Assembly (NCBI GenBank): GCA_029907315.1
Contig: JARYME010000014.1
Coordinates: 1-42,790, forward strand
Length of the DNA stretch: 42,790 bases
Direction: 5' to 3'
Origin: Armatimonadota bacterium
Lineage (GTDB): Bacteria > Armatimonadota > UBA5829
Part shown: one piece after another, positions 1,707 to 32,237 of the stretch
Position numbering within the stretch: position 1 is the stretch's first letter
Layout: every line of letters begins with the position of its first letter
Translations under genes and position numbers: made by a program
The notes under the pieces: model-generated
What the model saw: only the letters and a program-made list of their open reading frames with translations
Told to the model about the DNA's origin: nothing
Database searches by the model: none

Positions 1707-4430
1707 CTACCGCAAGACTAGGCTTGTTGAGTCTATGTATCGCTCACCGGCTGCGTTAGTGTAGATTATGCCCTTGACGTCTGCCCATTGCCCCTCAGAT
1801 GCGCCGTGACCGGGTTTGACAACTCGAATGCCTGCGGCTTGGTCCGGATCTGCCACATACAGAAACGTGCTAAAACAGGCCGTTACCACCACACCTGCGA
1901 GCGAAACCGATGAGCCGTCGGGTTTGGACTTTACGCCCGAGACACTGTCGCCGTCCAGGGGAGGCAGAGTCGCACCTGTTGTTTTGTAGAGCACGTAGTC
2001 GAACTCTATGCTCTGAGTCTCCTGCGAGCCATTTGCCCCAAAAATCATGCGGTTTACACTGGTAGGGTAGGCTGTACCCACGAATGCCGGTACGGGACTT
2101 TCGTCCACGTAACAAGCGTACGTGCTGCCTTTCAGCGTAAACCTGTATTGGTGCCAGATCGTGCCGTCCAGCGCATACTGGGCATCTAGGCGCGAAGTTC
2201 CGTCAGACTTGGCAGCTACTCTATCAGGCAACACGACAAAGCTAACGTAGCGTAGACCGTCGTATAAGCTGACGTTAGCGCTTTCGGAACCCATCGAGGC
2301 TGAGCTGCACCTTGCGCGGGTCAGTACGGTGGTGCCGACTGAGTTGATAGCGTTCCAGCTTCGGTACCATCGTATCTTACTTCCGACAGAGGTGGAGATG
2401 TCTGTAATGGCAAGGATGCCCAGCTCAGGATCGATGCGCGCCCAGAACTCACTACCTCCGTCTTCGAGGGCCGTCCATGGAGGAACCGATGCGGACGGGA
2501 GAACATAGGCGTGGTATTCCACCTGCCAAGCCTCAGCTGCTGCGCGGCCGAACGCCGGCGCAGAGGCAAGACCGCCGTCATCGATTGCAAATACTGAGTA
2601 GTAGCGGGGTATCCCATTGATAAGTGGACTGTGGCGAATGCTGCACCGGGCACCGAGCTCAGCACACGAGATGAAAGCAACCGGTTCGCCGTCGTGGGGA
2701 GAACGCGGAAAGCGGTCGGCGCGCGCACGAACGACAATACCAGCCAGATCTTTGTCCAGGGGATTCGTCCACGAGATGGTCACTGCGCCGTTGGTTCCCT
2801 CAACCGATAGATCCGAGGGTAGACTCGGAGGATTTCTATCGGCGTCTAGGTAGAAAGAAACTCCAGGGCTGCTCCATGCGCCCCACCCAGCTGAATTGTG
2901 AAGCCTTACGAACACGTAGTAGGCTTTGCCTGCCTGGAGTGCGTCCGTCTTGTGACAACTTGCGCAGCTAATCACCTCTCCCGAGTCATAGACTGATCCG
3001 TCGTCCGGTACGTTCGAAGTGTTGACGTGCACTTCGTATCTATCGTGCCATTGGCCTGCCCATTCTACGCGAACTTTGGGCCCTTCCACATGCGAACCCG
3101 CCTGCGGGTGAACCACATTCGGGGCGGCCGGCGAGGGCGCTGCAAAGTCAGACGTAAAGCGCTGGACATACACGGCGCCGCCGTTGTCCGTGCAAAGAAG
3201 CTGAACACACAAACCGTCACTAGGCCGAATTGCTAGGCAACCATCACGAACACCACCGGCAGCAGTATTGACATCGACGCGACTACCAAGTGGCAAACCT
3301 TCGGCGCTGAACACTCTGCCGCGGATTATGTTGGCGTGACCGTCGGTGAGGTCTTCGTAGGTGATTAGATAAGAGCTGCTTTGAGGATTGAAAACAGCAC
3401 CGGTGGGAACACCAAAATCCGGATACGACACAGCCAGCAGATCGGAGCACAACCAGTTTCCTTTGCTGTCAATGACAAGGGCGTATGTGCGGTAGTAGTC
3501 GGTCGAAGTAAGCTTTTGAACTACCACGACGTAGCTACCGTCCGTCGTGTTGCAGACCAGATGCGTCGGAATATCCTGGCCGTTAGGCGTGTATGGGAAA
3601 CCACCCCAATACAACGGTATGTTTGCTCCTATAAGGGCACGCGTGGAGGCTCGTAATCGCTGAGCGTAGATGTCGGAGTAACCGTTATCTTGCCCCGTGC
3701 CGACGTAGTTGCGGTAATCCTGCCAAACCACAAAGAACTCCCCGGCTATTGGGTTGTAGACTACCTTCGGACTGTGGCTGTCATAAGGAGCAGTCGAATC
3801 CCTCAACCGCAGCTCGGAGGTGAGTGGCTTCCCCTCAGCATCGAAGAATCTGCCCATTACCTGCTTGCCGCCGCCGATTTTTTCTGACCACACAACAAGA
3901 AACTGTTTGTTTACGGGGTCGTATGCCACATCGGCGCTGTTCTGGTATCCTGGTTTGCTCACCAGGACTATGCAGCTCCCTATTTTACTGCCATCGCTTC
4001 TGATCCTCTGAGCCAGCACGTCGTCTTCTCCACCCGACACGCCTGAGATGGTGCCCTGGTACACGACAAACCATTCCCCGTTGGAAGGATTGTAGGCAGC
4101 TGCACCTATGATCGCTTTGACGGAGGTGGGGTCGGGTGAAATGTAGAACGCCTGCCCAACGGGAGTGCCCGAGTTTGGATCAAAGCGGCGCGCTTTCAAC
4201 TGCCAGCCGTTGGAATCAGTTACATCCACCCATAGGACGAGGAATTGGTCGGAGGTCTCGTTATAGCATACGGCAGGCCAAAAAGCTCCCTTTTCGCACA
4301 CGATGACCGGCGCACCTACGGGACCGGCTGTCGCTGCTGTCGGCCAAGCAGCGATTCCCGCAACGCAAAGGCCAACAATACGTGCAAACCCCCACCAAAG
4401 CGCACTGCAGTGTTTAGTCCGGCTCAACAC
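1707..4430 (-). CDS. Secreted multidomain protein: propeller-like repeats, two FnIII-like domains, LamG-like domain, OB-like C-terminus
   Basis: I set the start at the GTG at 4430, because AAGAGGAG lies six bases upstream; this gives 907 residues. A hydrophobic segment ending in AATAG looks like a signal peptide. Residues of about 40-430 contain six or seven repeats with an aromatic-rich strand of the FLVVWxD type followed by an AQR-type strand, suggesting a beta-propeller. Two fibronectin type III-like domains follow, then a LamG-like region and a final domain of about 80 residues with GIRVV and GERYI motifs. That last domain recurs in the neighbouring secreted proteins. The first FnIII-like domain holds CASCH at residues 489-493, a possible haem attachment motif. 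This is the third gene of a leftward run and starts 48 bases after the preceding stop. It is likely a surface or carbohydrate-binding protein; no enzymatic motif was recognised. Confidence 0.72.
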   Translation of the reverse strand: MLSRTKHCSALWWGFARIVGLCVAGIAAWPTAATAGPVGAPVIVCEKGAFWPAVCYNETSDQFLVLWVDVTDSNGWQLKARRFDPNSGTPVGQAFYISPDPTSVKAIIGAAAYNPSNGEWFVVYQGTISGVSGGEDDVLAQRIRSDGSKIGSCIVLVSKPGYQNSADVAYDPVNKQFLVVWSEKIGGGKQVMGRFFDAEGKPLTSELRLRDSTAPYDSHSPKVVYNPIAGEFFVVWQDYRNYVGTGQDNGYSDIYAQRLRASTRALIGANIPLYWGGFPYTPNGQDIPTHLVCNTTDGSYVVVVQKLTSTDYYRTYALVIDSKGNWLCSDLLAVSYPDFGVPTGAVFNPQSSSYLITYEDLTDGHANIIRGRVFSAEGLPLGSRVDVNTAAGGVRDGCLAIRPSDGLCVQLLCTDNGGAVYVQRFTSDFAAPSPAAPNVVHPQAGSHVEGPKVRVEWAGQWHDRYEVHVNTSNVPDDGSVYDSGEVISCASCHKTDALQAGKAYYVFVRLHNSAGWGAWSSPGVSFYLDADRNPPSLPSDLSVEGTNGAVTISWTNPLDKDLAGIVVRARADRFPRSPHDGEPVAFISCAELGARCSIRHSPLINGIPRYYSVFAIDDGGLASAPAFGRAAAEAWQVEYHAYVLPSASVPPWTALEDGGSEFWARIDPELGILAITDISTSVGSKIRWYRSWNAINSVGTTVLTRARCSSASMGSESANVSLYDGLRYVSFVVLPDRVAAKSDGTSRLDAQYALDGTIWHQYRFTLKGSTYACYVDESPVPAFVGTAYPTSVNRMIFGANGSQETQSIEFDYVLYKTTGATLPPLDGDSVSGVKSKPDGSSVSLAGVVVTACFSTFLYVADPDQAAGIRVVKPGHGASEGQWADVKGIIYTNAAGERYIDSTSLVLR

Positions 4431-4478
4431 AGTATGCTCCTCTTGGCGACGTCCACCCAGCACGCAGAATTCGATCAG

Positions 4479-9632: not shown

Positions 9633-12374
9633 GTGTTTGGAAAAGCAAGAATTGTGATTCTCGCACTGGCGGTTTTCGTTGTAAGCACCGCGACAGTCAG
9701 TGCCGGGCCCGAACTGGATAGGGTGCTAGACTATATGTTTATGGACCAGAGCGTTCCGATGCGCGGTCCGCAGTTGCTTTTTGACGTTCAGCGCGAAATC
9801 CAGCTCACAGCGGACACGCGTATCGGTCAAACGTTCGTAACAGGTCCGAATACCGCAAGGCTGGCACGCGTCAGAGCGTACCTAGCCCCGACGGCAGACT
9901 GGACCCCCGGTGAAGGCGCCGAACTTACGCTGTGGGACAGCCCCGCGCGCACGAAACGGCTTGGCAGTTCTGTCGTGACGTACGAAGACAGAGTTTTCCA
10001 CTACAATCAAGTGGAGTGGGATCTGAATGTCGATGTGAAGCCCAATACAACGTACTACTTCGAGCTCACATACACAGGCTCTGGGGATGGCAAGCTTGGA
10101 AGAGTGGGCGTTATGAACGGCAGAGACGCCTACAGGTACGGCCAAGGTTACTTGAACGGGCAAGAGGCGGATTTTGATATTTGCTTCCAAACACACTCGC
10201 GCCGAGCTTACGATCCCGTTAGGAACCTCAAAGAAATGTTCTCGCGGCTCAATTTGGAACTTCCAGGGTTTAGAAAGGTAAAAGCCGCGGTCGAAAAAGG
10301 AGATTTTGAAACCGCGATCAGGGAAACGGTGGCATATTTCGAAGCACGAAAGGAACCCTGTGCCATCATCAACCCCTCCCAAACACCAAAACGCGACCCG
10401 AACTTCGATCTCACAAAGGCGAACGAGATGTTGAATAAGGACTGGCGCCATGCCGACCTAGAGGGTTATGAGGGTCGAAAGATTCTGATAAACGCCTACA
10501 ATGCCACCGGTGACGACAAGTACATAAAGAAGCTAAACGACCTCTTGATAGATTGGTATGTGCATCGCCCCCCGCCCAGCAAATCAAAAATAGGCGGTCA
10601 TCCGTGGGATGATACGTGGTCATCTCTCTCGACCGGACTGCGTATTGGACACGGGTTTGTGGCTTACTCGTGGATGAGCAGGTCACCGGCTTTCTCTACA
10701 GACTGCCGTATGGCATATATCATAGGGCTTGCCGACCACTGCAACACGCTCGTTGAATACGGAGCCGACGCGGGCGGCAACTGGGCGTTCACCCAAAACT
10801 GTGCAATGCTGACGTTCGCAATGAACTTCCCTGAGTTCAAAGAAAGCGAAGTCTGGAAACAAACGGCGATCGAAAGGCTGGCTGCGTCAATCAAAAGAGA
10901 TATACTGCCTGACGGCGTGGAAACGGAGTCGGCACCCAGTTATCAGCGGATGGCATACAACCCGCTTGCAACAGGTGTGTACGACGAACTGATAGTGAAG
11001 CGCGGACTTAAAACGCCGTTCGCCAAGGAGCTTCGTGACATCCTCGAGCGCCAAGCCGAGTATTTTATGTACATAGCTATGCCGAACGGTGTTACTCCAT
11101 ATCTCGGCGACTGGGCGCATGAAAATCAGCGCCCGGCAATCCTAGCAGACGCGAAGCGCTTCAACCGCAAAGACATGCTGTATGTGGCGACCGCAGGGAA
11201 GGAAGGGGTGAAGCCAAAGGAACTGTCGAAACTGTACCCGTGCGCCGGCATTGTTACGATGAGAAGCGACTGGGGCGACAAGGGAAGGCCTTTCGAGGAC
11301 GCGAGGTATCTCACGCTGCACGGCGTTCATTTCGGAGCGCACGGTCATCAGGATCTAAACGGAATCGCCGGGTTGTACGCTTACGGTCGAGAGCTGTTGT
11401 ATGACCCGGGGTCGCATATCTATGGCTCGCCAGAGCATTTCAAGCTCACCACGGCAATCTCACATAACCTGATGACCATTGACGGTGAGGACCAAAACCG
11501 CAGCGCCAAAGCCGAATTCAAAAACTGGTGCACAACTCCCGTTGTCGATTACGTGTCAAGCTGGGTCGACGCGTACAAAGGTGGAGACTACACTCGAGAG
11601 ATCTTCTATATACGCGCAAACGGTGATCCCGGGATATGGGACTACTGGCTGGTTCGCGACACCGCGAACGGCAGCGGTGAACACTCGCTTGAGCAGCGGT
11701 GGCGGTTCGTTTACGAGACACCTGTCGAAACCGATGAGAAGTCTTTATTGACAAAAACATCGCATCAATCAGGTGGCAACCTCGCCATAGTCCAGATTGC
11801 GCCGTTTGAAGGAATGAAACTTGAGCGCACAACTACCGACGTATGGCTTTGGCGCAACGAATTGGACACCGCCCCCTGCCAGATTCCGACGGTCAACTAT
11901 GTGGTTCGTCGGTCCCTTCCTGCTGCTATTGACACTTTGCTGCTGCCGTTTGACGAGCAAAACATGCCAACTCTTTCAACACGCACGTTGGAGCGCAGTT
12001 CCGATGGGCTGGATACTGCTTTTACCATAGAGCAGGGACGTGTTGAGGACCTTTTTGTTTACCAGCGAGCTCCTCGGTTCAAAAACATTCCCGAAAAGGG
12101 GATCGCATTCAACGGGGAACGGCTGTTTGTTCGACGTGTAGGCGGTAAGCTGAGGTCGGCGCTGCTGGTGAACGGCTCACAGCTAATAGTAGACGGCAAG
12201 CGTGTTATCAGTGCCGCGAAGCCTTTGTCCTGGGTGGCGGTCACGTTCGACGGCTCAAAGGTCAAAGCTTACTCAAGCTCCGAGGAGAAGTCGTTGGTCG
12301 TGTCATGGGAATCTCAGAGGAAGATTACTGTCCAAAACGCGGGGACGGACAAGCTTCTTCGCATGTGCAACTAA
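9633..12374 (+). CDS. Secreted heparinase II/III-like polysaccharide lyase
   Basis: The 913-residue protein starts at GTG with a signal peptide (hydrophobic stretch ending VSAGP at about residues 22-26). Residues of about 40-190 form a beta-rich domain with TFVTGPN and TLWDSP motifs, resembling carbohydrate-binding or Gal-binding modules. An alpha-helical toroid with WxxD- and NW-rich segments follows (about 230-520). The C-terminal half contains HFGAHGHQDLN and GRELLYDPG, typical of the Heparinase_II_III beta-sandwich domain. Family members cleave uronic-acid-containing polysaccharides by beta-elimination. A second member lies at 19905-22436, so the locus has two lyases. The ribosome site is poor (GGGGG at a distance). 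The family is clear; heparin, alginate or another substrate cannot be separated here. Confidence 0.85.
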   Translation: MFGKARIVILALAVFVVSTATVSAGPELDRVLDYMFMDQSVPMRGPQLLFDVQREIQLTADTRIGQTFVTGPNTARLARVRAYLAPTADWTPGEGAELTLWDSPARTKRLGSSVVTYEDRVFHYNQVEWDLNVDVKPNTTYYFELTYTGSGDGKLGRVGVMNGRDAYRYGQGYLNGQEADFDICFQTHSRRAYDPVRNLKEMFSRLNLELPGFRKVKAAVEKGDFETAIRETVAYFEARKEPCAIINPSQTPKRDPNFDLTKANEMLNKDWRHADLEGYEGRKILINAYNATGDDKYIKKLNDLLIDWYVHRPPPSKSKIGGHPWDDTWSSLSTGLRIGHGFVAYSWMSRSPAFSTDCRMAYIIGLADHCNTLVEYGADAGGNWAFTQNCAMLTFAMNFPEFKESEVWKQTAIERLAASIKRDILPDGVETESAPSYQRMAYNPLATGVYDELIVKRGLKTPFAKELRDILERQAEYFMYIAMPNGVTPYLGDWAHENQRPAILADAKRFNRKDMLYVATAGKEGVKPKELSKLYPCAGIVTMRSDWGDKGRPFEDARYLTLHGVHFGAHGHQDLNGIAGLYAYGRELLYDPGSHIYGSPEHFKLTTAISHNLMTIDGEDQNRSAKAEFKNWCTTPVVDYVSSWVDAYKGGDYTREIFYIRANGDPGIWDYWLVRDTANGSGEHSLEQRWRFVYETPVETDEKSLLTKTSHQSGGNLAIVQIAPFEGMKLERTTTDVWLWRNELDTAPCQIPTVNYVVRRSLPAAIDTLLLPFDEQNMPTLSTRTLERSSDGLDTAFTIEQGRVEDLFVYQRAPRFKNIPEKGIAFNGERLFVRRVGGKLRSALLVNGSQLIVDGKRVISAAKPLSWVAVTFDGSKVKAYSSSEEKSLVVSWESQRKITVQNAGTDKLLRMCN

Positions 12375-12439: not shown

Positions 12440-13111
12440 CTATTTGCGGCGCCGCAGGCACCCGACGAGGCCGAGTGCGAGCATGCTCAAACCCGCCAAA
12501 CTGGATGGTTCCGGAACTACGCTTATGTTGTCTACGAGAATCCAGTCCTCAGGCAGGTCTGAACGTCCGAAGTTCTCCAACTGCACCTGACCGACGCCGC
12601 CGGCAGCTCCACTGACGCTGTAATTAAGCGTACCGAGCAGCACACCGTTGTGATAGAACGTGGAAGTCTTGGCAACCTGGTCGATGACGACATCCAATCG
12701 ATTCCACTGGTCTTCTACCAGAGTAACCGTCGGCAAAACCAGCCCGTATCCGCCGATGCGCGGTCTGGCAGTATTGCCATATCCGTACCATCTGGCGAAA
12801 TTATTTCCGGCCGCGTCGTTGAACCAAGCCGCCCAAATGTTGCCGCCAGAGCTGATGCCTGGATAGGCTTCAAGGCTGCACGCAATGATATCGCCCGTGA
12901 TCGGCGTGATGTCGACGGTCGCTTTGAATGCCGTACCGCCGAGGCCAATCTGCACGGTTTGGTTGACAACGTTGATACCTTGGCCGGTGCCGTACCAGCC
13001 GTCGTTGCCGGCGAGAGGACCATCGGGATAGTTAAATCCCTCGAACCAAGCTGCCGCCGGGCTAGCTGCAACTGCGACCAGAACTGCCAATAATGCTAGT
13101 GCACAGCGCAT
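12440..13111 (-). CDS. PEP-CTERM sorted LamG-like protein with WYG...RPRI module
   Basis: This 223-residue protein has a signal peptide (to about Ala21), one beta-rich domain (about 22-197) and a C-terminal sorting signal: VPEP at 199-202, a hydrophobic helix, then RRRK. PEP-CTERM proteins are processed by exosortase in exopolysaccharide-producing bacteria; no exosortase gene lies in this window. The domain carries FNYPDGPLAGN near its start and RWYG (107-110) followed by RPRIGG (116-121). The same signature occurs twice in the protein at 16417-19056, so this is a recurring module with a LamG-like fold (fold is inference). An AGGAGGTGA ribosome site, complementary to the 16S tail, lies at the usual distance from the ATG. 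Its promoter shares an element with that of the 16417 gene. Confidence 0.85.
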   Translation of the reverse strand: MRCALALLAVLVAVAASPAAAWFEGFNYPDGPLAGNDGWYGTGQGINVVNQTVQIGLGGTAFKATVDITPITGDIIACSLEAYPGISSGGNIWAAWFNDAAGNNFARWYGYGNTARPRIGGYGLVLPTVTLVEDQWNRLDVVIDQVAKTSTFYHNGVLLGTLNYSVSGAAGGVGQVQLENFGRSDLPEDWILVDNISVVPEPSSLAGLSMLALGLVGCLRRRK

Positions 13112-13258: not shown

Positions 13259-13362
13259 TGGTTTATTCAATTCGACCAAATCATGTCGCATGCAGGTATG
13301 CGGTAGCTTGCAAGCGAAGTTTGTGAATGATACAAGCAACTAATAGGCGGAGTAGATGTGAG

Positions 13363-14856
13363 ATGAATCAGCCGGAAAGAATTCTTGGGAAAGTGTGCCG
13401 AGCCCTGGACACGTTGAGCAAGTTGGCGGATGATTTCCAGGGGTTGTTCCCCTCAATTATCGACTTGGAGACCCTGCGTATGCCGGAAGAGCTGCCGCCA
13501 AAGATACCCGGTCAACGAAATGAGGACCGCGCACATCCAGGCAGCAACCTAATGCACGACAAGTACGCTTTGGCGACAATGTACGGAGTGGCTAATTTGA
13601 CGAGGCGCGAGTACTCCGAAGTCGCAGATCGCTACTTGCAGCGCTTTGCTATCCACTGTACGAACACCACTACGGGGCTTTTCCCCTGGGGAGAACACGC
13701 ATTTTGGGACGTAAAGCACGATCGGATCGGCAACAGTTTCCCCTTGGCTTACGACTGGTGGACTAACCCGGCGATTCACGATCATTTGTCCGCAGCACCT
13801 TTTTGGCTGTGGGAAAAGCTACATCAATTCAACCCAAGGTGCGTTGAGCGCTTTGCGGAAGGTTTAGACTATCATTGGCGCGACGGAGAACCAATAGAGT
13901 ACTGCAGGCACGCAAATATTGAAATACGAGAGCGGCCTCCCAGAGAAGCAAGGTCATGTGATTTCCCGCGTCACGGCGGATTCTACATAATGGACTGGAC
14001 TTTCGCCTACCTGAAAACCGGCCGCCAGGACTTTCTGCAGCAAATCCACAAGATGCTCGACTACTGGTGGGAAAAGCGGGATCCGTCGACGGCTATGCTC
14101 CCACTTGAGAGTAAGACACCACCCGAAGTAACCGCCATATACGGCTTGACATCGCCTGGACAGGCTATGTCGCTGGCGATGAGTCTGTTCGAAACTGCCC
14201 AATTCATCAGGCGCAGTATTAGCGAAGCCGAACAACCAGACCAAGACGAGGGAACGTATGGCGTCTCAGACGCAGAACAACAAAGGCACCTCGAAAAATT
14301 GGCACAGACTATGTGGGAGCGAGCCACAGCTTATGCGAACTCGTTCTTGACGCTGCCACATGACCTGGCTAACGGAGTCTGGGTCAGCTGCACACGATTC
14401 GATACCGGAGAGATCGCGGGCACAATGAAATGCTGGGGAAGTGTTTACGGCTCAGGCGTCGCGGCGGGGGCTGCAAGGCTTTGTGTCGGCTTCTATCAGA
14501 TGACCGGTGATGAGAGATTCTTGCAGTTTGCGCAAGCTGTGGCGAAGGGTTATAAGACCGAACAGCTTCCCAGGGACGCCGTGGTGCCGGTATCCGACGC
14601 GGGCACCGTGATCGCACTTTTCGCCGATCTGTACGATGTCACTCGCGAAAAAGTTTGGTTAGAAGAAGGACTGAGAACAGCGGACGACATTATCGGCGTT
14701 TACTTTGACCGCGATTTGCCGCGCGGAGAAGCACACATCGATTACTACGACTCACAAATGGGGCCTGGCATATTGCTGCACTCGCTTGCTCAAATCGCTC
14801 TGTCGGCGTTGTACCCTGAGGAGTGCCCCATCCAACCGGATTACTCCGCAAGATAA
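13363..14856 (+). CDS. Unassigned (alpha/alpha)-barrel protein, possibly sugar-active
   Basis: From the ATG at 13363 the product has 497 residues; an earlier ATG at 13327 is possible, but its twelve extra residues look non-native. There is no signal peptide, so it should be cytoplasmic. The sequence is helix-rich with aromatic-Asp motifs (FPWGEHAFWD, YDWWTNP, DYWWEKRDPS) and a late repeat of paired helices around SDAGTVIALFADLYD and DYYDSQMGPGILLHSL. This resembles the (alpha/alpha)6 toroids of glycoside hydrolases, epimerases and polysaccharide lyases. I do not recognise a specific family or catalytic pair. Its position between lyase, PEP-CTERM and regulator genes suggests a role in processing imported oligosaccharides. 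Confidence 0.6.
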   Translation: MNQPERILGKVCRALDTLSKLADDFQGLFPSIIDLETLRMPEELPPKIPGQRNEDRAHPGSNLMHDKYALATMYGVANLTRREYSEVADRYLQRFAIHCTNTTTGLFPWGEHAFWDVKHDRIGNSFPLAYDWWTNPAIHDHLSAAPFWLWEKLHQFNPRCVERFAEGLDYHWRDGEPIEYCRHANIEIRERPPREARSCDFPRHGGFYIMDWTFAYLKTGRQDFLQQIHKMLDYWWEKRDPSTAMLPLESKTPPEVTAIYGLTSPGQAMSLAMSLFETAQFIRRSISEAEQPDQDEGTYGVSDAEQQRHLEKLAQTMWERATAYANSFLTLPHDLANGVWVSCTRFDTGEIAGTMKCWGSVYGSGVAAGAARLCVGFYQMTGDERFLQFAQAVAKGYKTEQLPRDAVVPVSDAGTVIALFADLYDVTREKVWLEEGLRTADDIIGVYFDRDLPRGEAHIDYYDSQMGPGILLHSLAQIALSALYPEECPIQPDYSAR

Positions 14857-16416: not shown

Positions 16417-19056
16417 ATGAGAAAGGTAATCCTGTTAAGTCTCGCCTTGCTCGCAATAGCATCGATGTGTGGCTATTGCGACGTGCCGCCAGCCAATCGG
16501 TTCCTGCTGTGGTATCTCGGCAACACTCTACCGACAAACCCCAACTCAGCGGGACCCGGCATTCAGTTTATCAAACAGTACCCCACAGGCGGCGGTCTAC
16601 TGGACGGTGTCATTGTAGATGACCCCGAGGCAACCGATGGCAAAGCGCTCTTTATCAGCGACAATTCTACGTCCGATATGGTTTGGTACAGAAGCCAGCC
16701 TGGGTGCGTGTTCGACAATGCAAGCGGTGTAACGATCGTTGGCCGCGTCAAGGTGACCAGCGATATTCATGGCGAGGACGGCAGCGCTGGTGCAAACCTC
16801 AGCATATTGGACTCGACTGAAGCCAGCGGCTTGCGCTGCGGATATCACTGGGGCGGAGCCAACGGAGACGTTGGTGAAACAATTCGTGGGCAGTTTGCAG
16901 AGTTCCCTGGGGCGGATGGCAAGTATCACATTCTGCGAATGACCGCTCAGGGAAACGTCTATGGTAAGCAGTGCCCGTGGAGTGAGGACTTTGAAAGCTA
17001 TACCGTGGGCGAGGCCTTGGTCGGCCAAGACGAATGGATCGGAACTGCCGGAGGCGGATATGACCCGAATAACCCGACGCAACTCCTCTCGGGATTGACT
17101 GTGGTCGACGACCCTGATGAAGCCACGCGGCCGACTCACGGCAAGGTGACGGTGTTCGCAGGCGGCGATGCTGTGTTCCAGGGCTATGTGCGTGTCTTGG
17201 CAGCGCCAGACCCCAACACCAACGAAATGGTAGTCGAATTCGACATCAAGGGAACAGCAGACGGCAGCACATGCTGGTTCTTAGACGTCAACGACATCAA
17301 CGGCGTGAATATTTGTCAGTGGTACGGTGCGTCGTCAACCTGTCGTCCCAGAATAGCCGGCACGGTTAATGTAGGTACGCCGCGCAACCTGACCTGTAAT
17401 GGACAATGGGACCACCTCAAGATCGTCATCAACACCCAGACGAAGCTAGCCAAGTTCTACCTCAATGGTGAGGTTGACCCGAATTATCCCGACGGCTTAG
17501 ACTATACGAACCGCCCCGGGGTGGGACCCTGCGTAGACCGGATAGGTCAGATTGCTATCCGGAGCCCGTGGGACTACCAAGGCAGGAACCTGTTGTACTT
17601 CGACAACTTGACGGTCAACGGCGTTCCCGTCACCGAGGGCTTCCGCACGATCAAGCTTTACATTGACGAGAATCCGCAGCCGGTTCTGACGATATCGCCT
17701 GCTTCCCCGGCGTGGACCGGATGGGCAAACAACTTCTTCGGCTTCGGTTCTACGTCGGTGATGGGCCAGCAGGACGTTTACTTCGACTGGGTGACCGCAA
17801 CCAACCGTGGAGCGTTTGCACCTGGCGAAGAGGTTAACGTGCTGGGTCACAGCCTGGTACCCGGTGCACCTGTAAGCACTATAGACGACGCGAAGACGTG
17901 CCCAGACGGCACGCCGGTCGTGATACCGGAAGCGGTCGTGACAGCGTCGTTCACGAACAACTTGACCGAGATGTCGCCGATCGGCTTCGCGATTGAGAAG
18001 CCCGACCGGACCGCGGGAATTCGGGTTGTGCAGAACGGCGGTTATGCCACGGCGCCGGGTGAGAAGGTCTCGATTATCGGTTTCACGGCTACCGTGAATG
18101 GAGAGCGCGTGATACTAGCAAGCGAGATCACAAGCTTGGGCACCGGTTTTGACGTTCCCGCGCCGCTTGCAATGAACCAGAAAGCGACAGGCGGCGGAGC
18201 GTTCGGAGCCCAGCCGAACGTTTGGGACGTGCACCCTGCAATCGAGACGTTCAGCTACCCTGACGGAGCTCTCATCGGCCAGAACCTGTGGTACGGAAAT
18301 GCTCCTGCATCACGCGTGGGAGTGACAGGCGGTGTAATCAGAGTTCAGGGTGGTGCTGGTGCCTTTACGGCCGCACATGCTGCGGGAACTGCAGTCGGCG
18401 CGGAGTCGTTCGAGATGAGTGTGAAGATGAAGCGCGGAGTAGGCACCGCGAACATATGGCAGCTCTTTGCATACGATTCCCAGGGTGTTGAGCTCGTAAG
18501 ATGGTACGGTTCGGGCACGAGCGCGAGACCTAGAATCGGTGGTTCCATCCTGCCATCTATCGTGCTGACTGACGACAATTGGCACACCTTGACGATCAAG
18601 TACACGTTTGCAAACAACACGGCCGAGTTCTTCTTCGACGGTGTATCGAAGGGAACGATCACAGGCCTCACCGGGAACGACACTCTTGGTAGAGTCGAGT
18701 TTATGGTGTACGACCAGCCGACTCTAACCGACAACTACGCTCTGTTTGACGACCTGCAAGTAGACGGTTTCACGGTGTCCACGCCGGCTGTCGGGCTCAA
18801 CAACGTCGGTTTGCTGGTGCGCATCTTCGGAAAGATCACCGAGATGAACATCACCGGTGATCTGGACGGTTGGTTCCGTATCGAGGACGGTTCGTGCGTC
18901 AACCAGCCCGCCGCGTCCGGCATCCGCTGCAGAGTGCCTGAGTGGGACAGCCTAATGATGTTTGCGAACATCGGCGACTACATCGCCGTGACAGGCGTGC
19001 TCGGAGTGGACAACGGTCTGCGGTACTTGTGGACCACGGATTACACCAAGTACTAG
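16417..19056 (+). CDS. Secreted mosaic protein: LamG-like, WYG/RPRI and OB-like modules
   Basis: I place the start at ATG 16417 (AAGGGA upstream; signal peptide MRKVILLSLALLAIASMCGY), giving 879 residues. A LamG-like domain starts at about residue 20 and reaches a YHILRMTAQGN strand at about 172-182. It appears to resume at FRTIKLYIDENPQ from residue 409. In between (about 184-408) sits a complete WYG module (QWYG at 301-304, RPRIAG at 310-315). An OB-like domain follows (about 487-585, with AGIRVV and GERVILAS). A second WYG module comes next (about 606-790, with RWYG at 695), then a final OB-like domain (GLNNVGLLVRIFGKI to the end). No PEP-CTERM or other anchor is visible. It is likely an extracellular glycan-binding or structural protein. 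Two hairpins follow the gene. Confidence 0.8.
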   Translation: MRKVILLSLALLAIASMCGYCDVPPANRFLLWYLGNTLPTNPNSAGPGIQFIKQYPTGGGLLDGVIVDDPEATDGKALFISDNSTSDMVWYRSQPGCVFDNASGVTIVGRVKVTSDIHGEDGSAGANLSILDSTEASGLRCGYHWGGANGDVGETIRGQFAEFPGADGKYHILRMTAQGNVYGKQCPWSEDFESYTVGEALVGQDEWIGTAGGGYDPNNPTQLLSGLTVVDDPDEATRPTHGKVTVFAGGDAVFQGYVRVLAAPDPNTNEMVVEFDIKGTADGSTCWFLDVNDINGVNICQWYGASSTCRPRIAGTVNVGTPRNLTCNGQWDHLKIVINTQTKLAKFYLNGEVDPNYPDGLDYTNRPGVGPCVDRIGQIAIRSPWDYQGRNLLYFDNLTVNGVPVTEGFRTIKLYIDENPQPVLTISPASPAWTGWANNFFGFGSTSVMGQQDVYFDWVTATNRGAFAPGEEVNVLGHSLVPGAPVSTIDDAKTCPDGTPVVIPEAVVTASFTNNLTEMSPIGFAIEKPDRTAGIRVVQNGGYATAPGEKVSIIGFTATVNGERVILASEITSLGTGFDVPAPLAMNQKATGGGAFGAQPNVWDVHPAIETFSYPDGALIGQNLWYGNAPASRVGVTGGVIRVQGGAGAFTAAHAAGTAVGAESFEMSVKMKRGVGTANIWQLFAYDSQGVELVRWYGSGTSARPRIGGSILPSIVLTDDNWHTLTIKYTFANNTAEFFFDGVSKGTITGLTGNDTLGRVEFMVYDQPTLTDNYALFDDLQVDGFTVSTPAVGLNNVGLLVRIFGKITEMNITGDLDGWFRIEDGSCVNQPAASGIRCRVPEWDSLMMFANIGDYIAVTGVLGVDNGLRYLWTTDYTKY

Positions 19057-19904: not shown

Positions 19905-22436
19905 TCAAAAAATTACGTCTACACTTCCCGATCCCTGGTCCGGAACCTGAATCGGCTGGCCTTGGAACGTTACTTGTTTCACATCCGCTCCAGACAGACG
20001 AATCACTTTGCCGTCCTTGCACCGCAGCACTAGAACTTCGGCATCGGCGCTGAGGTTCTCGCTGGGGATAGAGATCCGGCGCGTGTCTTTCCAGGAAACG
20101 ATTATGTAGTCCGTCTCGTTGCCGCGCACGATTTTAATTGCCGATACCCCTGGAGGATTGCCTTCTACAGCCAGGCGGGCAACCTTCACATCGGGAACTG
20201 TTTGTCCCTTGTACGGATAAAGAACAATATCGAATACTGCCGGCGTTCCGCCCTTCCTAGAATACTTCCACCCCTTGGACTTGATGGGTTTATCGGAGTC
20301 CATGCGGTGCGATGCTATGAAGAACTCAACCGGCTCCGAAACAAGACCATCGGTATCGACCGGCAGCATCAGCAGTTGGCCTTCCTTGGTGTAGCCCTCT
20401 GCCTGTTCGATAGGGAAACTGGTGTACACGGCTTTAGTGGCCGGGTCTTCGGTCAGCCCGGCATCCTCGGCGAAGTGCCAATTCTGGTCGTAGGTATGCT
20501 CACCCTCGCCCTCAACGCGATCTATGACGACCCAGTAGTCCGGCTTTACAAAGACGATTCCTCTGATGTGCATGAGCTTTTCATAGCCGTCAAACGAACC
20601 GAGTGCGTAGTCAAAGCCGTCGTTCGACACCCAGCGACGCGTCTTACCAGCACCCCCGGGCTGATTCTTGCCGTCGATGGTGATGGTGTTGTGGTAAGAC
20701 GTTTGAGGATATAACTGGACGTCGGCGCGCTCATAGCTGCGGATGCCTGGGTCAATAAGCAGCTCGCGACCGTAGGCATAGGCGGTTATGTTCAGCACGT
20801 CGTCATGCCCGTGAGCCCCTCGGCTTGTCTTGAAGACCAAATGCCTCGCGTGCTCGTAGGGCTTTTCATCGTAGCTGCTTCGCATAATACTCCACTGGCC
20901 GTGAGGAAAGTTCACAGACGCCTTTTCGGGCATCTTTCCTTCCTTGCCCCTCGTCCAGACGTATTTGATGTCCTCGCGTTTGAAGTACTCGAAGGCCTTC
21001 GGGAGAGGATATGCTGCACCCCCACCCCAGTCACCGATCGCCGGCATGTTCCCGTCCGGCTGAGTTACCGCAGCAAGAAAATCTTGGGTCTTGTTAAGGC
21101 GCGACCGAACTTCTGGATCAACGGCAATACCGGCTTCATCAAGTGCCTGCAGAGTGCCCAGCATGGCGTTATATGCGAAGCACACATAACCCGGGGCATC
21201 CTCCATTTCTTTTCCGTCGGGGTGCACATCGCGAAGCACGTTGCGCTCGAAGCTGGTCTTGCCATACTCAAGCCATATTGGGCGGTCGGCAAAGAATGGA
21301 AATTCCATAGCTATCCCCAGGACGGCCGCGGTTGAATGTGCAAGCCAGTTGCCCCCGGTGAAATTGTCGTTTTTGAGATAATCCGCGTGTTCCCAAATGG
21401 AATAAAGCCAGTTTGCCCAGAGTTCGTCGTCCACGTTCTTCGTGGCGGTCAGCCTAGCAAAGCGGGAGGTAAGCCAGCCCGCTCGCGCCGCCGAATCGAG
21501 TGTACGCCAGGTCGGATAATCGGCACCGCTCATCACTTCCGGTTTGGGGTTGGCATCGATCCAGTCGTAGAAGATCGATTTCAGGTAGCGAGCCCATCCT
21601 ACGTCACCTGTGTGATAAGCGGCATCAACCGGAGCGCCGATCGGCGACCCACGGTTGAGGAAGTTCTTGTGTTCATACCAGTCGCTGTTCTTCATATATG
21701 CCCAGTCTATTGGAACGACTTCAATACGTTTTATTCCGGCAAAGTCGAGTTCGCCTCGCCGCAATGCCTCCTGCCGAGACAGGTCGATCTTCGGGTTCCG
21801 CGGCTCAGCCGGGTACTTCTTGGCACAATAGGCTCTAAGCGCTGCACAGGCAGCCTTCCAATTCTTAGCCTCACAGTACTTGTAGAAATCCTCCAGTCCT
21901 GGAACACCGGGTTTGATGCGCTCGTAGAGCAGACGGGTCACCTCGTTAAGCCGAGGGTGCTCATAACCCTTGTAGATGCGCAGACCGTGTACCAGAGCTC
22001 CTTCCGAACCTTCACCCAGGTCGAACTTTACCCAACGCGCCTTTACCTTCGGAAGCCGCAACACCTGGAAGAGCCCCAGGTCCTTTTTCTCGAACACAAG
22101 CTTATAAGGACCCTGAGGAGACTTTGAGGAGACTTCTATACGAACCCTTTTGGCGTTTCGGTCTTCACCGGCACCTGCCGTACCGAAATCCACGCGGTCG
22201 AAAATGCGTTCCTGCCCCAAATCCACAATGAAGACTTGCTTCTGCGGCTCCTTTGCGAACACAAGCCTGCCTTTAGGCACTGGCGCATCGCTCAACAGCT
22301 TGTTGGGATCCTGATCGCCAACCAGCTTAGCGGTGCAAATAACGCTGGCGCCCATCTTAGGCGATGCAAAATTCACCGGATATGCCCAGACAGCTACAGG
22401 AACAAACAGTACAAGGATCGCGGCAAACAGTTTCAC
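19905..22436 (-). CDS. Secreted heparinase II/III-like lyase with N-terminal F5/8C-like domain
   Basis: The GTG at 22436 has a perfect AGGAGG seven bases upstream and starts a signal peptide (MKLFAAILVLFVPVAVWA); the ATG at 22460 lacks this. The product has 843 residues. Residues of about 25-145 resemble a coagulation factor 5/8 type C (Gal-binding) domain (FIVDLGQERIFDRVDFG, RWVKFDLGE). An alpha-toroid follows (about 150-480). Last comes a Heparinase_II_III beta domain with RGAHGHDDVLN, YGRELLIDPG and SYHNTITIDGK. It is a beta-eliminating polysaccharide lyase by family. It is the last gene of the leftward catabolic block, 83 bases after the nitrilase-family gene, and a paralogue of 9633-12374 with a different N-terminal module. 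Confidence 0.85.
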   Translation of the reverse strand: MKLFAAILVLFVPVAVWAYPVNFASPKMGASVICTAKLVGDQDPNKLLSDAPVPKGRLVFAKEPQKQVFIVDLGQERIFDRVDFGTAGAGEDRNAKRVRIEVSSKSPQGPYKLVFEKKDLGLFQVLRLPKVKARWVKFDLGEGSEGALVHGLRIYKGYEHPRLNEVTRLLYERIKPGVPGLEDFYKYCEAKNWKAACAALRAYCAKKYPAEPRNPKIDLSRQEALRRGELDFAGIKRIEVVPIDWAYMKNSDWYEHKNFLNRGSPIGAPVDAAYHTGDVGWARYLKSIFYDWIDANPKPEVMSGADYPTWRTLDSAARAGWLTSRFARLTATKNVDDELWANWLYSIWEHADYLKNDNFTGGNWLAHSTAAVLGIAMEFPFFADRPIWLEYGKTSFERNVLRDVHPDGKEMEDAPGYVCFAYNAMLGTLQALDEAGIAVDPEVRSRLNKTQDFLAAVTQPDGNMPAIGDWGGGAAYPLPKAFEYFKREDIKYVWTRGKEGKMPEKASVNFPHGQWSIMRSSYDEKPYEHARHLVFKTSRGAHGHDDVLNITAYAYGRELLIDPGIRSYERADVQLYPQTSYHNTITIDGKNQPGGAGKTRRWVSNDGFDYALGSFDGYEKLMHIRGIVFVKPDYWVVIDRVEGEGEHTYDQNWHFAEDAGLTEDPATKAVYTSFPIEQAEGYTKEGQLLMLPVDTDGLVSEPVEFFIASHRMDSDKPIKSKGWKYSRKGGTPAVFDIVLYPYKGQTVPDVKVARLAVEGNPPGVSAIKIVRGNETDYIIVSWKDTRRISIPSENLSADAEVLVLRCKDGKVIRLSGADVKQVTFQGQPIQVPDQGSGSVDVIF

Positions 22437-22519
22437 AGTCACACCTCCTGCTGCGTTCATTTCAAATCAGTGCTTGCAAAACCCGCATATTATTGGACAC
22501 GATGGGTTCTGGTCCGCGT

Positions 22520-26068: not shown

Positions 26069-27331
26069 TCATTCCGAGTTGAAACCTATTTCCGCTTTAC
26101 CTTCCTTCATCTTGTTCTCGATTCTTGCGCCGCCGCGCATGTTGTTGCCGACAATCGTGGCGCCGTAGACGTTCGGCCCGAGCTCTACCTGGACTTTTCC
26201 GTCGTCCATGAAGTCGCAGCCGGACACGTTCAGTCGGCGGCAATCGGCGCGAATGACCGGATCATCGCCAGGATGCCTATTGAAGTGGCAAGCTGTGACG
26301 GTAACAGTGCCAAGCCCCTTCAGATCGAGGTACGGACCCTTGCCGCCCCAAAATCCGCAGTTAGCGAACTTAACTGGCCCATTGCTTTGATCCGTAACCA
26401 CCACAGTGCCCATAAACTGGCAGTTGACGAAAGACACTCCCGAATGCGGTTGAATCTTCTCAACAAGCACCGCTGTCGGACACCCGTCAGCGCCTGAATT
26501 GGTGATAACGGCATTGCCGGGTCCGCTGCTGCCATTAATGAAGTGAAAGCCGACTTTGTAGCAAATGCAGAAGCAGTTGTCCACATACTGCCAGTCTGTT
26601 CGCGCGAACTTGAAGGCCGTTGCGTGCTTCTGGGTGTAAAGCATCAGCTCACCATCCCAGAATGGCCAAAAATGCACATTCTGAATGCGACCGACATCGA
26701 AACAGTGGTCAACGAAGATGCCTATATTGAGCGGCTGCCCAGAAACATTGCGGATCATGTGGCGACCGTTGCCACGCAGACCAAAGTTGATACCGTTCCA
26801 AGGGTTCACGAGCATAACGTCAACTACGCTGCAGTCATACTCAGCACCAGCTATGCACCACGGATAAGGCACCGGATTCTTCCGGTCCTGTTCCGGATAA
26901 TAGATTGCTAGTCCCTTAACGCAAGCTCCGGAGTTCAGAAAGATGAATGGCTCACCCTGTTCAGACCCCCTGCCCTCGACCGCCAACAACTTGCTGCACT
27001 TGAACGAATTCAACGTACCCGGAGAGCGCAGTGTACCCTCAAGTGTAACGTGCATAGGAACATTGAGGTGACCTTTGATCAGGTAGTCGCCGGTAGGCAC
27101 AAACACGATGCCGCCGCCATCCTTTGCTGCGGCGTCAAGAGCTTTTTGGAATGCGGCGGTGTCGTCGGTAACCCCGTCGCCCTTTGCACCAAATTGGATA
27201 ACGGAGTAGACACCCTTCTGCTGCCCCCAAAACAACTCATTGGCCGTCTGCTCACCCAGACACGGTCGGAGAAGAACAACAGAAAGCACAACAGCGCCGA
27301 TTAATCGAGCACGGTAATCTGTCATATGCAA
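26069..27331 (-). CDS. Secreted right-handed beta-helix protein (pectate lyase superfamily type), copy 2
   Basis: The 420-residue product starts at a TTG with GGAGG six bases upstream. That ribosome site lies inside the end of the preceding gene, so the two are translationally coupled. An ATG two codons later is possible. A signal peptide ends near CLGEQ. The N-terminal motif YSVIQFGAKGDGVTDDTAAFQKAL is here given only in its parts: IQFGAKGDG and TDDTAAFQKAL mark the pectate lyase superfamily/GH28-type beta-helix entry. Later repeats contain VGRIQNVHFWPFWDGE. Known members cleave pectin-like or other uronate polysaccharides. The preceding gene is a close tandem paralogue. No polygalacturonase catalytic Asp pattern was recognised. 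Confidence 0.78.
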   Translation of the reverse strand: MHMTDYRARLIGAVVLSVVLLRPCLGEQTANELFWGQQKGVYSVIQFGAKGDGVTDDTAAFQKALDAAAKDGGGIVFVPTGDYLIKGHLNVPMHVTLEGTLRSPGTLNSFKCSKLLAVEGRGSEQGEPFIFLNSGACVKGLAIYYPEQDRKNPVPYPWCIAGAEYDCSVVDVMLVNPWNGINFGLRGNGRHMIRNVSGQPLNIGIFVDHCFDVGRIQNVHFWPFWDGELMLYTQKHATAFKFARTDWQYVDNCFCICYKVGFHFINGSSGPGNAVITNSGADGCPTAVLVEKIQPHSGVSFVNCQFMGTVVVTDQSNGPVKFANCGFWGGKGPYLDLKGLGTVTVTACHFNRHPGDDPVIRADCRRLNVSGCDFMDDGKVQVELGPNVYGATIVGNNMRGGARIENKMKEGKAEIGFNSE

Positions 27332-27332
27332 T

Positions 27333-28619
27333 TCAGTCCTCCGCGTTCAACCCGATCTGAATGTTGCCTTTGCTCTTATTCTCGATCTTGGCTCCGCCGC
27401 GGAGCAAGTTTCCCATTATCACAGCTGATTTCTGGTTTTCTCCAAGCACAATCTGCTTCTTGTCTGCGTTCATAAAGTCGCAGTTGGACACGGTGAGAGC
27501 TGCGCCATTCGAGTAGATACATGGTTCGCCCTTGTTTTCGGCATCCCATGTGATAAAGTGGCACGAATTGAAAATAACGTGACCGTTTCCCAACACACGC
27601 GCATGGTTGATGGTCTCCTTGGGCAAGCCCCAGAACCCGCAGTTGGTGAACTTCACGGGACCATTGTTGGTATCTCGAATGTCGATGCCCGCCATGAACT
27701 GACAGTTTACGAACTGGAGACCGGCGTGGGGTTGGCATTTCTCGACGAGGACCGCGCACGGCCCTATATCGGCGCCAGAGTTACTGATGACCACGTTGCC
27801 GGGACCGGCGTCACTTGCGGCAAGAAAATGGAATCCCACTCGGAAAAAGATCGTGAACGTGTTGTGGATGAACTGCCAGTCGGTGCGTCCGATCTTGAAG
27901 CCTGTGCCGTTCTTGTAGGTGTAATCTTTCATCAGGGGCACGTCCCAAAACGGCCAGAGATGAACATCCTCGATTCGCCCAACGTCGAAGCACTTGTCAA
28001 TGAAAATGCCTGTCTTGATCGGTTGGGCGTAGAGTCCTTTGATGTAGTGACGGCCGCAGGGTCTGGTGCCAAAGTCTACAGCCTGCCACGGGTTAACAAG
28101 CAGGACGTCGACTATAGAGCAGTTGTCGCCTTCCCCAGCAATACACCACGGGTATGGAACGGGGTTCTTCCGATCCTGCTCCGGATAGTAGACTGCGAGA
28201 CCTTTAATCACCGAATCGTGGTGCATAAAGATGAACGCCGGACCGTCTTCTTTTCCTTTTCCCTCAACCGCAAGAAGCACGGACCCTTTGTAGTTGGCGA
28301 CGTCGATACCCCTGATTGCACCCGTCAAGCTCGGCGGCGCCTGAAAAACTCCCTGCAGCGTGACTTGCGACGGTATCTCAAGATGACCCTTGATGAGATA
28401 AGCACCCGAGGGCACGAAAACGATACCGCCCGTCTTGCCCGCCTCGTTGAGGGCTTTCTGAAAAGCCTCGGTGTCGTCTGTGGTACCGTCTCCTCTTGCT
28501 CCAAAACTGGTAACGCTGTAAACGCCCGGCTGTCCCAGGACAGCCTGCGGAACGTCGGCGGCTTGTAGAGTTACCGCAGCCAATAAAAGCACTACCAACC
28601 CGATTGCACCTGCACCCAT
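27333..28619 (-). CDS. Secreted right-handed beta-helix protein (pectate lyase superfamily type), copy 1
   Basis: ATG 28619 is chosen because GGAGG lies nine bases upstream and the product then begins with a signal peptide (MGAGAIGLVVLLLAAVTLQA); an ATG at 28661 would precede the ribosome site. The 428-residue chain opens with VTSFGARGDG and TDDTEAFQKAL, the start of a pectate-lyase-superfamily beta-helix. It shares long segments with the next gene, including YYPEQDRKNPVPYPWC and CFDVGRI..VHLWPFWD. The tandem pair suggests a recent duplication with specialisation for related substrates. A predicted promoter lies directly upstream, so expression can be partly independent of the kinase gene. 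Confidence 0.8.
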   Translation of the reverse strand: MGAGAIGLVVLLLAAVTLQAADVPQAVLGQPGVYSVTSFGARGDGTTDDTEAFQKALNEAGKTGGIVFVPSGAYLIKGHLEIPSQVTLQGVFQAPPSLTGAIRGIDVANYKGSVLLAVEGKGKEDGPAFIFMHHDSVIKGLAVYYPEQDRKNPVPYPWCIAGEGDNCSIVDVLLVNPWQAVDFGTRPCGRHYIKGLYAQPIKTGIFIDKCFDVGRIEDVHLWPFWDVPLMKDYTYKNGTGFKIGRTDWQFIHNTFTIFFRVGFHFLAASDAGPGNVVISNSGADIGPCAVLVEKCQPHAGLQFVNCQFMAGIDIRDTNNGPVKFTNCGFWGLPKETINHARVLGNGHVIFNSCHFITWDAENKGEPCIYSNGAALTVSNCDFMNADKKQIVLGENQKSAVIMGNLLRGGAKIENKSKGNIQIGLNAED

Positions 28620-28698
28620 AACCAAATTCCTCCCACCTAAAATAATCCAAATCCGGCACATAAACGGTTACTCACCCCGTCACCATTGCCTTGCGCAC

Positions 28699-30639: not shown

Positions 30640-30711
30640 AAACCGTCAGCCTCCACAACCCAGTGAGTAAGGCGTATCTCCGCAACAGCGACGTTTCCGA
30701 ACCACTTCTAA

Positions 30712-30724
30712 TTGGTTCAACCAA
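30712..30724. promoter_or_regulatory. Palindrome in the divergent sulfatase/NagB-like region
   Basis: TTGGTTCAACCAA reads TTGGT-N3-ACCAA, a perfect palindrome around a three-base spacer. It has the same form as the palindrome at 13216-13228 and fits the operator consensus described for FadR-subfamily GntR regulators (TnGTnnnACnA). It lies 73 bases upstream of the catabolic block's first start codon and 92 upstream of the sulfatase. Confidence 0.5.
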
Positions 30725-30815
30725 GTCGCCCCTACGTCCTTCAGGCAGGAATATGATTGATTCGCAGCGAAGTTTGACCGCAGTAGGCGGTACGAGGATA
30801 TCAGAGGAAAAATAT

Positions 30816-32237
30816 ATGAAGCACAACGGACTTACGCGAAGAGAGTTCCTGAGCGCCGCCGGTATATCGACCGCAGCAATGGCTTTGGGAAGCGGTTTAT
30901 TTGCGGCCGAACCGAAGCCCACAAACGTGCTGCTGATCACAGCCGACGACGCAAACTGGGACTCATTCGGCTGCACTGGCTGCAGAGCGCCCAATATCTC
31001 ACCGAACATCGACGCGCTTGCCGCACAAGGGATACGCTTCGAGCACGCACACGTCACCAGTGCAATCTGCCAGCCGTCCAGATCCGTTATCGGAACTGGC
31101 AGGTATCCTCACAGAAACGGCGCCCTCGGATTCGACCCGATAAGAACTGATGTGCCTACGATAGTCGAATGCTTCAGGTCCTCAGGATACTACACCGGCA
31201 TATTGGCAAAGGTGGAGCATATGGCTCCGCCGGCGAAGTTTCCATGGGATGTGGTTGTCAAGGGAGCGGAACTCGGAAATGGGCGCAACCCGCAGCTCTA
31301 CTATCAGCACACCAAAGCTCTAATCGAACAGGCGAAGGCCCAGGGAAAGCCTTTCTTCTTGATGGCAAATTCTCAGGATCCGCACCGACCGTTTCCGAGC
31401 ATAGATCAGCCTTCGGAAAACGTAAGCCGAATCTATAAGCCTGAAGAAGTCGACGTCCCGGGATTCCTGCCTCAGGGAATCCCCGACATCCAGAAGGAGA
31501 TTGCGCAGTACTACACGGCCGTTCACAGATGCGACGAAACGGTAGGCCAGATACTCAGAGCACTGCGCGATGCAGGCGCCGAAGAAAACACGATGGTGAT
31601 TTTCCTAAGCGACAACGGGATATCGGTTCCTTTCGCCAAGACCAACTGCTATGAAAACAGCACAAAGACACCCTTAATTATCCGTTGGCCCGGGAAGATA
31701 AAGCCGGGGCTGGTCGACAAGGAGCACTTTGTCAGCGGAATAGACTTGATGCCGACCTTGATCGATGCGCTGGGTCTGAAACCGGTGGAAGGCATGGACG
31801 GAACCTCGTTCGCTCCCATACTGCGAGGCGTAAAGCTGCCGGGAAGGGATAAGGTGTTCACTTTTATCACGAGCACCGCCGGCAGGAGATTCTACCCGAT
31901 GCGCTCCGTCCGCACAGCGACGAGAAGCTACATATTCAATGCCTGGTCGGATGGGAAAACTGAGTTCCAAAACGAGCCTATGAGCGGGCTTACCTGGAAC
32001 GCCATGGTGCGGGCAGGCAAGCAGGACTCGAAGATAGCCGCGCGGTGCGACTTCTTCCTGCACAGGGTGCCCGAGGAGTTCTACGATCTAACGAAAGACC
32101 CTTGCGAGCTGAACAATCTAATCGACTCACGCGCGCACCGTGAGGAAATAGATCAGCTCCGAGCGGAGATGCTCGATATGATGAAGAGTACGAGTGATCC
32201 GCTGTTAGATGAGTTTCGGAAAAAGATCGGCGCTTAA
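30816..32237 (+). CDS. Tat-exported sulfatase
   Basis: ATG 30816 follows AGAGGA and opens a twin-arginine signal (LTRREFLSAAG, residues 6-16); the open frame extends further upstream without meaning. The 473-residue product is a type I sulfatase. Metal ligands are Asp44-Asp45 (LITADD), the formylglycine site is CQPSR (Cys85 to Arg89), and a late SDNG motif completes the site. Export in folded form through Tat is common for sulfatases that are modified in the cytoplasm. It is transcribed away from the catabolic block and shares its regulatory region. It probably desulfates the polysaccharide outside the cytoplasm before lyase attack. The sugar position cleaved cannot be told. Confidence 0.9.
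   Translation: MKHNGLTRREFLSAAGISTAAMALGSGLFAAEPKPTNVLLITADDANWDSFGCTGCRAPNISPNIDALAAQGIRFEHAHVTSAICQPSRSVIGTGRYPHRNGALGFDPIRTDVPTIVECFRSSGYYTGILAKVEHMAPPAKFPWDVVVKGAELGNGRNPQLYYQHTKALIEQAKAQGKPFFLMANSQDPHRPFPSIDQPSENVSRIYKPEEVDVPGFLPQGIPDIQKEIAQYYTAVHRCDETVGQILRALRDAGAEENTMVIFLSDNGISVPFAKTNCYENSTKTPLIIRWPGKIKPGLVDKEHFVSGIDLMPTLIDALGLKPVEGMDGTSFAPILRGVKLPGRDKVFTFITSTAGRRFYPMRSVRTATRSYIFNAWSDGKTEFQNEPMSGLTWNAMVRAGKQDSKIAARCDFFLHRVPEEFYDLTKDPCELNNLIDSRAHREEIDQLRAEMLDMMKSTSDPLLDEFRKKIGA

Follow-up and report, generated by a model that had tools for sequence, protein, structure and literature searches.

The locus examined here raises the question of how a secreted protein of 879 residues (P0001) came to carry what looks like one LamG-like domain interrupted by another complete domain, a WYG module, and why a second WYG module lies further along the same chain. 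The window, that is, the whole stretch of 42,790 nucleotides that was analysed, is contig C55 of an Armatimonadota genome of 3.3 Mb (G000). Two further species of the genus encode orthologues of P0001, with 88-90% identity. Its layout, together with two genes of the window that bear on its history, is given in Table 1. The first inserted segment is termed M1 and the second M2; the core WYG module of M1 spans residues 188-405, and the edges of the M1 segment are uncertain by about 3 residues.

Table 1. Features of the P0001 gene and of two related genes in the window (aa, residues of P0001).
Feature	Position	Strand	Basis or remark
Uninterrupted host copy (empty-site homologue), followed by an OB1-like domain	1953..2555	-	In a 918-aa protein, 1707-4463 (-)
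Free-standing WYG module, 223 aa: hydrophobic leader, module, PEP-CTERM signal	12440..13111	-	TIGR02595, 20.9 bits (cut-off 16)
Gene of the 879-aa secreted protein P0001, stop included	16417..19056	+	ORF; orthologues in two congeneric species
Hydrophobic N-terminal segment, probable Sec signal peptide, aa 1-21	16417..16479	+	Read from sequence
N-terminal part of LamG-like host domain, aa 28-182	16498..16962	+	Profile 50-143 at aa 80-182; host-only alignment; shuffle control
Inserted segment M1 with linkers, aa 183-411	16963..17649	+	Module profile, deletion scan, AlphaFold2, Foldseek/VIA
C-terminal part of host domain, aa 412-474	17650..17838	+	Profile 141-199 at aa 410-472, 36 bits
"OB1", first domain of C-terminal pair, aa 486-602	17872..18222	+	Independent profile 2-114, 114 bits
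Second inserted WYG module M2, aa 603-788	18223..18780	+	Module profile; deletion scan; Laminin_G_3 match
"OB2", second domain of C-terminal pair, aa 789-879	18781..19053	+	Independent profile 115-189, 63 bits

The first-pass annotation proposed that the first domain runs to YHILRMTAQGN (about residue 182) and resumes at about residue 411, with a complete module between, starting at EDFESYTVGEALVGQ and ending at FDNLTVNGVPV. All four motifs were found within a few residues of these places: YHILRMTAQGN at 170-180, EDFESYTVGEALVGQ at 190-204, FDNLTVNGVPV at 395-405 and IKLYIDENPQPVLTI at 412-426. The continuity of the flanks was borne out by a host HMM built from 14 contiguous homologous regions, P0001 being left out; one of these regions (L076) is a chimera, and an HMM without it gave the same result. 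The HMM matches both flanks (Table 1), the N-terminal one weakly when alone (10-15 bits), and the two halves follow each other in the profile (143|141) in the correct order. When the M1 segment was omitted, a single match of 61-63 bits was obtained (E about 6e-18). In a deletion scan, the best of 2628 alternative cuts was 184-412 (56.7 bits; 95th percentile of cuts, 34.7), and the fine optimum was 183-412, at 63.2 bits vs. 30.7 for uncut P0001. The real joined score was never reached when the N-half was shuffled 1000 times (maximum 47.3 bits; C-half alone, 36.4), nor when it was replaced by any of 151 foreign segments (maximum 40.7 bits). The module between the halves is likewise confirmed, with a match of the module profile to M1 at E 5e-57 and a ConA-like model (see below). 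In multiple alignment, MAFFT carried the host rows across M1 correctly when these alone were supplied (a YLxxxLP motif lies upstream in the N-terminal host part of this host-only alignment), and misplaced them onto M1 when host and module rows were aligned together. For this reason, the case for an insertion was built on profile HMMs and deletion scans instead of the MAFFT alignments. By these profile matches, both flanks are assigned to one domain family in consecutive order, as in a domain insertion of the form A1-B-A2.

An insertion predicts that homologues of the host domain without M1 should exist. When the two halves of the first domain were used to search G000, a protein on another contig (G000:C112) was found in which the sequence is unbroken through the junction, and the same class yielded further uninterrupted copies. 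The 291 Armatimonadota genomes searched contain 81 host matches; 70 of them, spread over 31 genomes, span the junction with 24 or fewer extra residues, and one of these contiguous copies lies in the window itself. Among the 81, matches from profile position 142 onward only are confined to P0001 and its two orthologues, which are the sole interrupted members. Given 70 contiguous copies and three interrupted ones, the interrupted form is the derived one. The arrangement of P0001 minus both its modules also occurs: HOST-OB1-OB2 proteins with neither module are encoded in G016 and G018 at L122 (2598-6554), L138 (895-4890) and L139 (1576-5682).

The second insertion was analyzed with a profile of the C-terminal pair, built from 16 pairs with P0001 left out. 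The match of P0001 to this profile breaks at 114|115, corresponding to residues 602|789, exactly around M2, and the best deletion for the pair is 603-788 (200.4 bits); the module profile matches M2 at E 9e-66. With M2 omitted, the linker reads GGGAFGAQPNVWDVHP-TPAVGLNNVG, resembling GGGAFGAQPAVVDNAPDTLSTGLNTVG of a relative. The signals for both insertions are far beyond chance. Of the earlier proposal that a WYG module at about 606-790 interrupts the linker of two OB-like domains, the interruption stands, as the pair is contiguous in many paralogues and other proteins of G000 and related genomes. The term "OB-like" fared less well, in that the OB-fold matches of the pair are all sub-threshold (RMI2, 0.027; BOF, 0.066; tRNA_anti-codon, 0.049). 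A Pfam search gave no family above cut-off for the pair, a sequence search of the PDB gave no match, and the pair is an undescribed domain family. Dozens of its copies (GGG...GLNNIGLLVRxWGRV...DDGSG) end large secreted proteins of the class.

The inserted module was characterized by structure prediction and profile searches. An AlphaFold2 model of M1 alone (pLDDT 77, pTM 0.80) gave 305 Foldseek matches at E <= 0.001, the best being to the sialidase BT_1020 (4e-8). VIA-align superposed M1 on residues 413-613 of BT_1020 with a Z of 17.2 and an rmsd of 2.8 A over 176 residues, followed by GH16 glucanases and calreticulin (Z 13-15). M1 therefore models as a ConA-like lectin/glucanase jelly roll, and its predicted fold is like that of superfamily members such as Laminin_G_3 (PF13385), BT_1020 413-613 (PDB 5mqr), GH16 and the TtX122 domains 8q28/8q2a. 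Unlike these, the module found no match when its profile was searched against PDB sequences, and its Pfam matches are sub-threshold: Laminin_G_3 scores 26.6 bits (7.6e-6) over the M2 region of P0001, where the curated cut-off is 27.6, and matches one of nine modules at E <= 0.01. A search of genome contigs with a narrow module profile returned six loci, five of them titled Armatimonadota. Strong copies occur in 5 of the 291 genomes, namely three of this genus plus G016 and G018, which belong to another family of the same order; elsewhere in the phylum there are one or two weak matches. These searches suggest that the WYG module is an undescribed sequence family with strong matches confined to a few Armatimonadota. 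G016 (the JAUSGG assembly) has 28 WYG module matches, weak ones included, and at least 11 host-domain copies, many in secreted proteins of 1000-1800 residues, and represents a lineage-specific expansion of lectin-type domains.

The WYG module also occurs outside P0001 as a unit in its own right. A free-standing WYG gene (P0003) lies 3.3 kb from the P0001 gene, and elsewhere copies of the module stand end to end beside fn3-like and CBM9-like domains, or follow signal peptides. The counterpart of the free-standing gene in G002 (contig 8, 145168-145765) is broken by a stop or frame change.

With regard to the point of insertion, the host family weakly matches Laminin_G_3, Laminin_G_2 and 3keto-disac_hyd (PF06439), all below curated cut-offs, as well as several neurexin LNS domains; these matches are in register over the M1-bearing hairpin, a strand-turn-strand of the pattern WHxVRxxRxGxxxxLxVD. 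In a profile comparison, the same host stretch aligned with a hairpin of M1 itself (model strands 148-155 and 160-165; P 0.0023, HHalign probability 12.5%). M1 thus appears to sit in the turn of a host beta hairpin. The flanks had been described as adjacent strands of a LamG fold, and the hairpin alignment to neurexin LNS/LamG domains agrees with this at the level of sequence; the AlphaFold2 model of residues 20-482, made with four host rows (pLDDT 40.9, pTM 0.36), is too poor to read. In three dimensions, M1 would be nested within the host. Such nesting of one LamG-like domain in the hairpin of another is the notable detail of an insertion that is otherwise ordinary in kind. A break at nearly the same residue is seen in L140 (1827-4094, G018 contig 427), where a CBM9-type domain is joined in frame to the C-terminal host half, around residues 341-444. 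The CBM9 sequence stops at a VEIYID strand (Pfam positions 26-78 of 185) and the host C-half follows (SPTPIMTG...). This chimera could be a real recombination or an assembly join.

Comparison with the congeneric genomes dates the events. G002 carries both modules, and G001 carries M1, its contig ending before M2 would begin. The insertions are at least older than the separation of these species. Between G000 and G002, dS is 1.05-2.55, near saturation, and dN/dS is 0.026-0.066 in each of the six segments, the inserts among them. Strong purifying selection acts on every segment, and the protein is maintained as a whole.

We consider it very probable that P0001 arose by two in-frame insertions of a ConA-like WYG module into a HOST-OB1-OB2 ancestor, as a case of domain shuffling. 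The ancestor would have consisted of a signal peptide, a LamG-like host domain and the OB1-OB2 pair, an architecture that persists in relatives. The module would then have entered in frame twice, into the host hairpin turn (residues 183-411) and into the OB1/OB2 linker (residues 603-788). As the first strand of a jelly roll is the neighbour of its last, a hairpin turn may accommodate such a module, and the host would still be able to fold around it. The events would represent old illegitimate recombination, fixed before the genus diversified, rather than transposition of a mobile element.

Other explanations differ considerably in their probability. The genomes concerned all seem to be metagenome assemblies, and one broken module gene lies nearby in G002, so that an assembly chimera or a decaying gene deserves consideration; against this, three genomes share the M1 junctions and two share those of M2, at dS above 1, while the frame is open throughout and dN/dS is about 0.03. 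Insertions common to congeners under such constraint are no assembly artefact, and we give this explanation practically no weight. It is also very unlikely that the N-segment, M1 and the C-segment are three separate domains, arranged like beads on a string, whose flank continuity is accidental. The weak match of the N-half alone and the uninformative model of residues 20-482 would be compatible with such an arrangement, but it would leave to coincidence the consecutive and correctly ordered profile coordinates, as well as a joined score that exceeds every shuffle and foreign segment and tops the 2628 cuts. Moreover, 63 residues are few for a domain of its own, and outside the chimera L140 this segment never stands as a complete domain by itself. 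A further possibility is that a single insertion came from outside and that the module was then copied within the gene, making M1 and M2 an internal duplication. The presence of the same module type twice in one gene fits this scenario, and the AU test is compatible with a single M1+M2 clade (p = 0.41). Still, the identity between M1 and M2 is only 28%, other sequences match each of them as well as or better than the two match one another, and in the module tree M2 groups instead with the free-standing neighbour gene (support 92/94, moderate). We regard internal duplication as the less likely course, albeit the most credible of the alternatives to two separate insertions.

The idea that WYG modules move as whole domains needs to be divided. 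It holds in the sense of domain shuffling, since the module occurs in several contexts; DNA-level mobility gained no support, as neither mobile-element genes nor junction repeats were found. A dedicated mobile element, intein-like or transposon-like, might account for the patchy distribution of strong copies and for the 28 matches in G016. Nevertheless, a Pfam search of P0001 revealed no splicing/endonuclease or transposase domain, no mobile-element genes were found around P0001, and the junctions share no microhomology or repeats beyond chance, although synonymous saturation would have erased such traces. Elsewhere the module stands in series with fn3-like and other domains, and it has spread by whole-gene duplication: the closest copies in G016, 80% identical, are parts of whole duplicated genes. 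A stable lectin fold under purifying selection also argues against an element of this kind, which we consider extremely improbable. The preferred reading remains domain shuffling through two in-frame insertions.

Domain insertion is found in about 20% of multidomain proteins, and the inserts have close termini (PMC13114784). M1, as a compact and independently folding module, fits these general rules. Among known systems, the TIM barrel of the GH10 xylanase Pm25/Xyn10C is interrupted between beta3 and alpha3 by tandem CBM4 modules (PMC7848910), and SusG, in which CBM58 is inserted in GH13, is cited in the same paper. In these examples, as in P0001, a domain of a secreted glycan-active protein has taken up a beta module of carbohydrate-binding type. 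The host in Pm25/Xyn10C is a catalytic TIM barrel, whereas that of P0001 is a LamG-like domain in a protein that lacks an enzyme domain and carries a second copy of the module elsewhere. A different parallel is provided by the BEAN and HABAS insertional domains of bacterial RNA polymerase, of which HABAS is recursively inserted (PMC11515920). Here too, one domain family occupies several non-equivalent sites, even within its own kind. In contrast, RNA polymerase is an ancient and essential enzyme, while P0001 records a genus-level event in a secreted protein whose uninterrupted relatives remain.

The surroundings of the gene point to a role for P0001. Genes for polysaccharide degradation occupy positions 265-1632, 9633-12374, 13327-14856, 19905-22460, 26069-28661 and 30663-32237 of the window, which encodes two sulfatases, two heparinase II/III-like proteins, a pectate lyase 2-like protein and two rhamnogalacturonase-type proteins, as well as a GntR/LacI-type regulator and a PfkB kinase. 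P0001 would display three lectin-type domains outside the cell. Judging from its fold, and because the window encodes sulfatases, heparinase II/III-like lyases and pectate-lyase/rhamnogalacturonase-like enzymes, it probably binds extracellular polysaccharide.

Domain insertion as such is common and well known, and P0001 is a new and unusually well-documented case of it. Pfam detects neither the host domain nor M1 in P0001, and profile annotation will miss the host half. The occurrence of an uninterrupted host, a free-standing insert and the interrupted product within one 43-kb stretch is rare and useful, as it permits a direct before-and-after comparison, in which one ConA/LamG-type domain appears nested within another. 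A more far-reaching and rather doubtful proposal is that the WYG module is a lectin domain specialized for insertion and that domains break repeatedly at the LamG hairpin, with M1 here and the CBM9 join in L140 as examples. If this were true, LamG-like domains would evolve by swapping and nesting at the hairpin, besides terminal addition.
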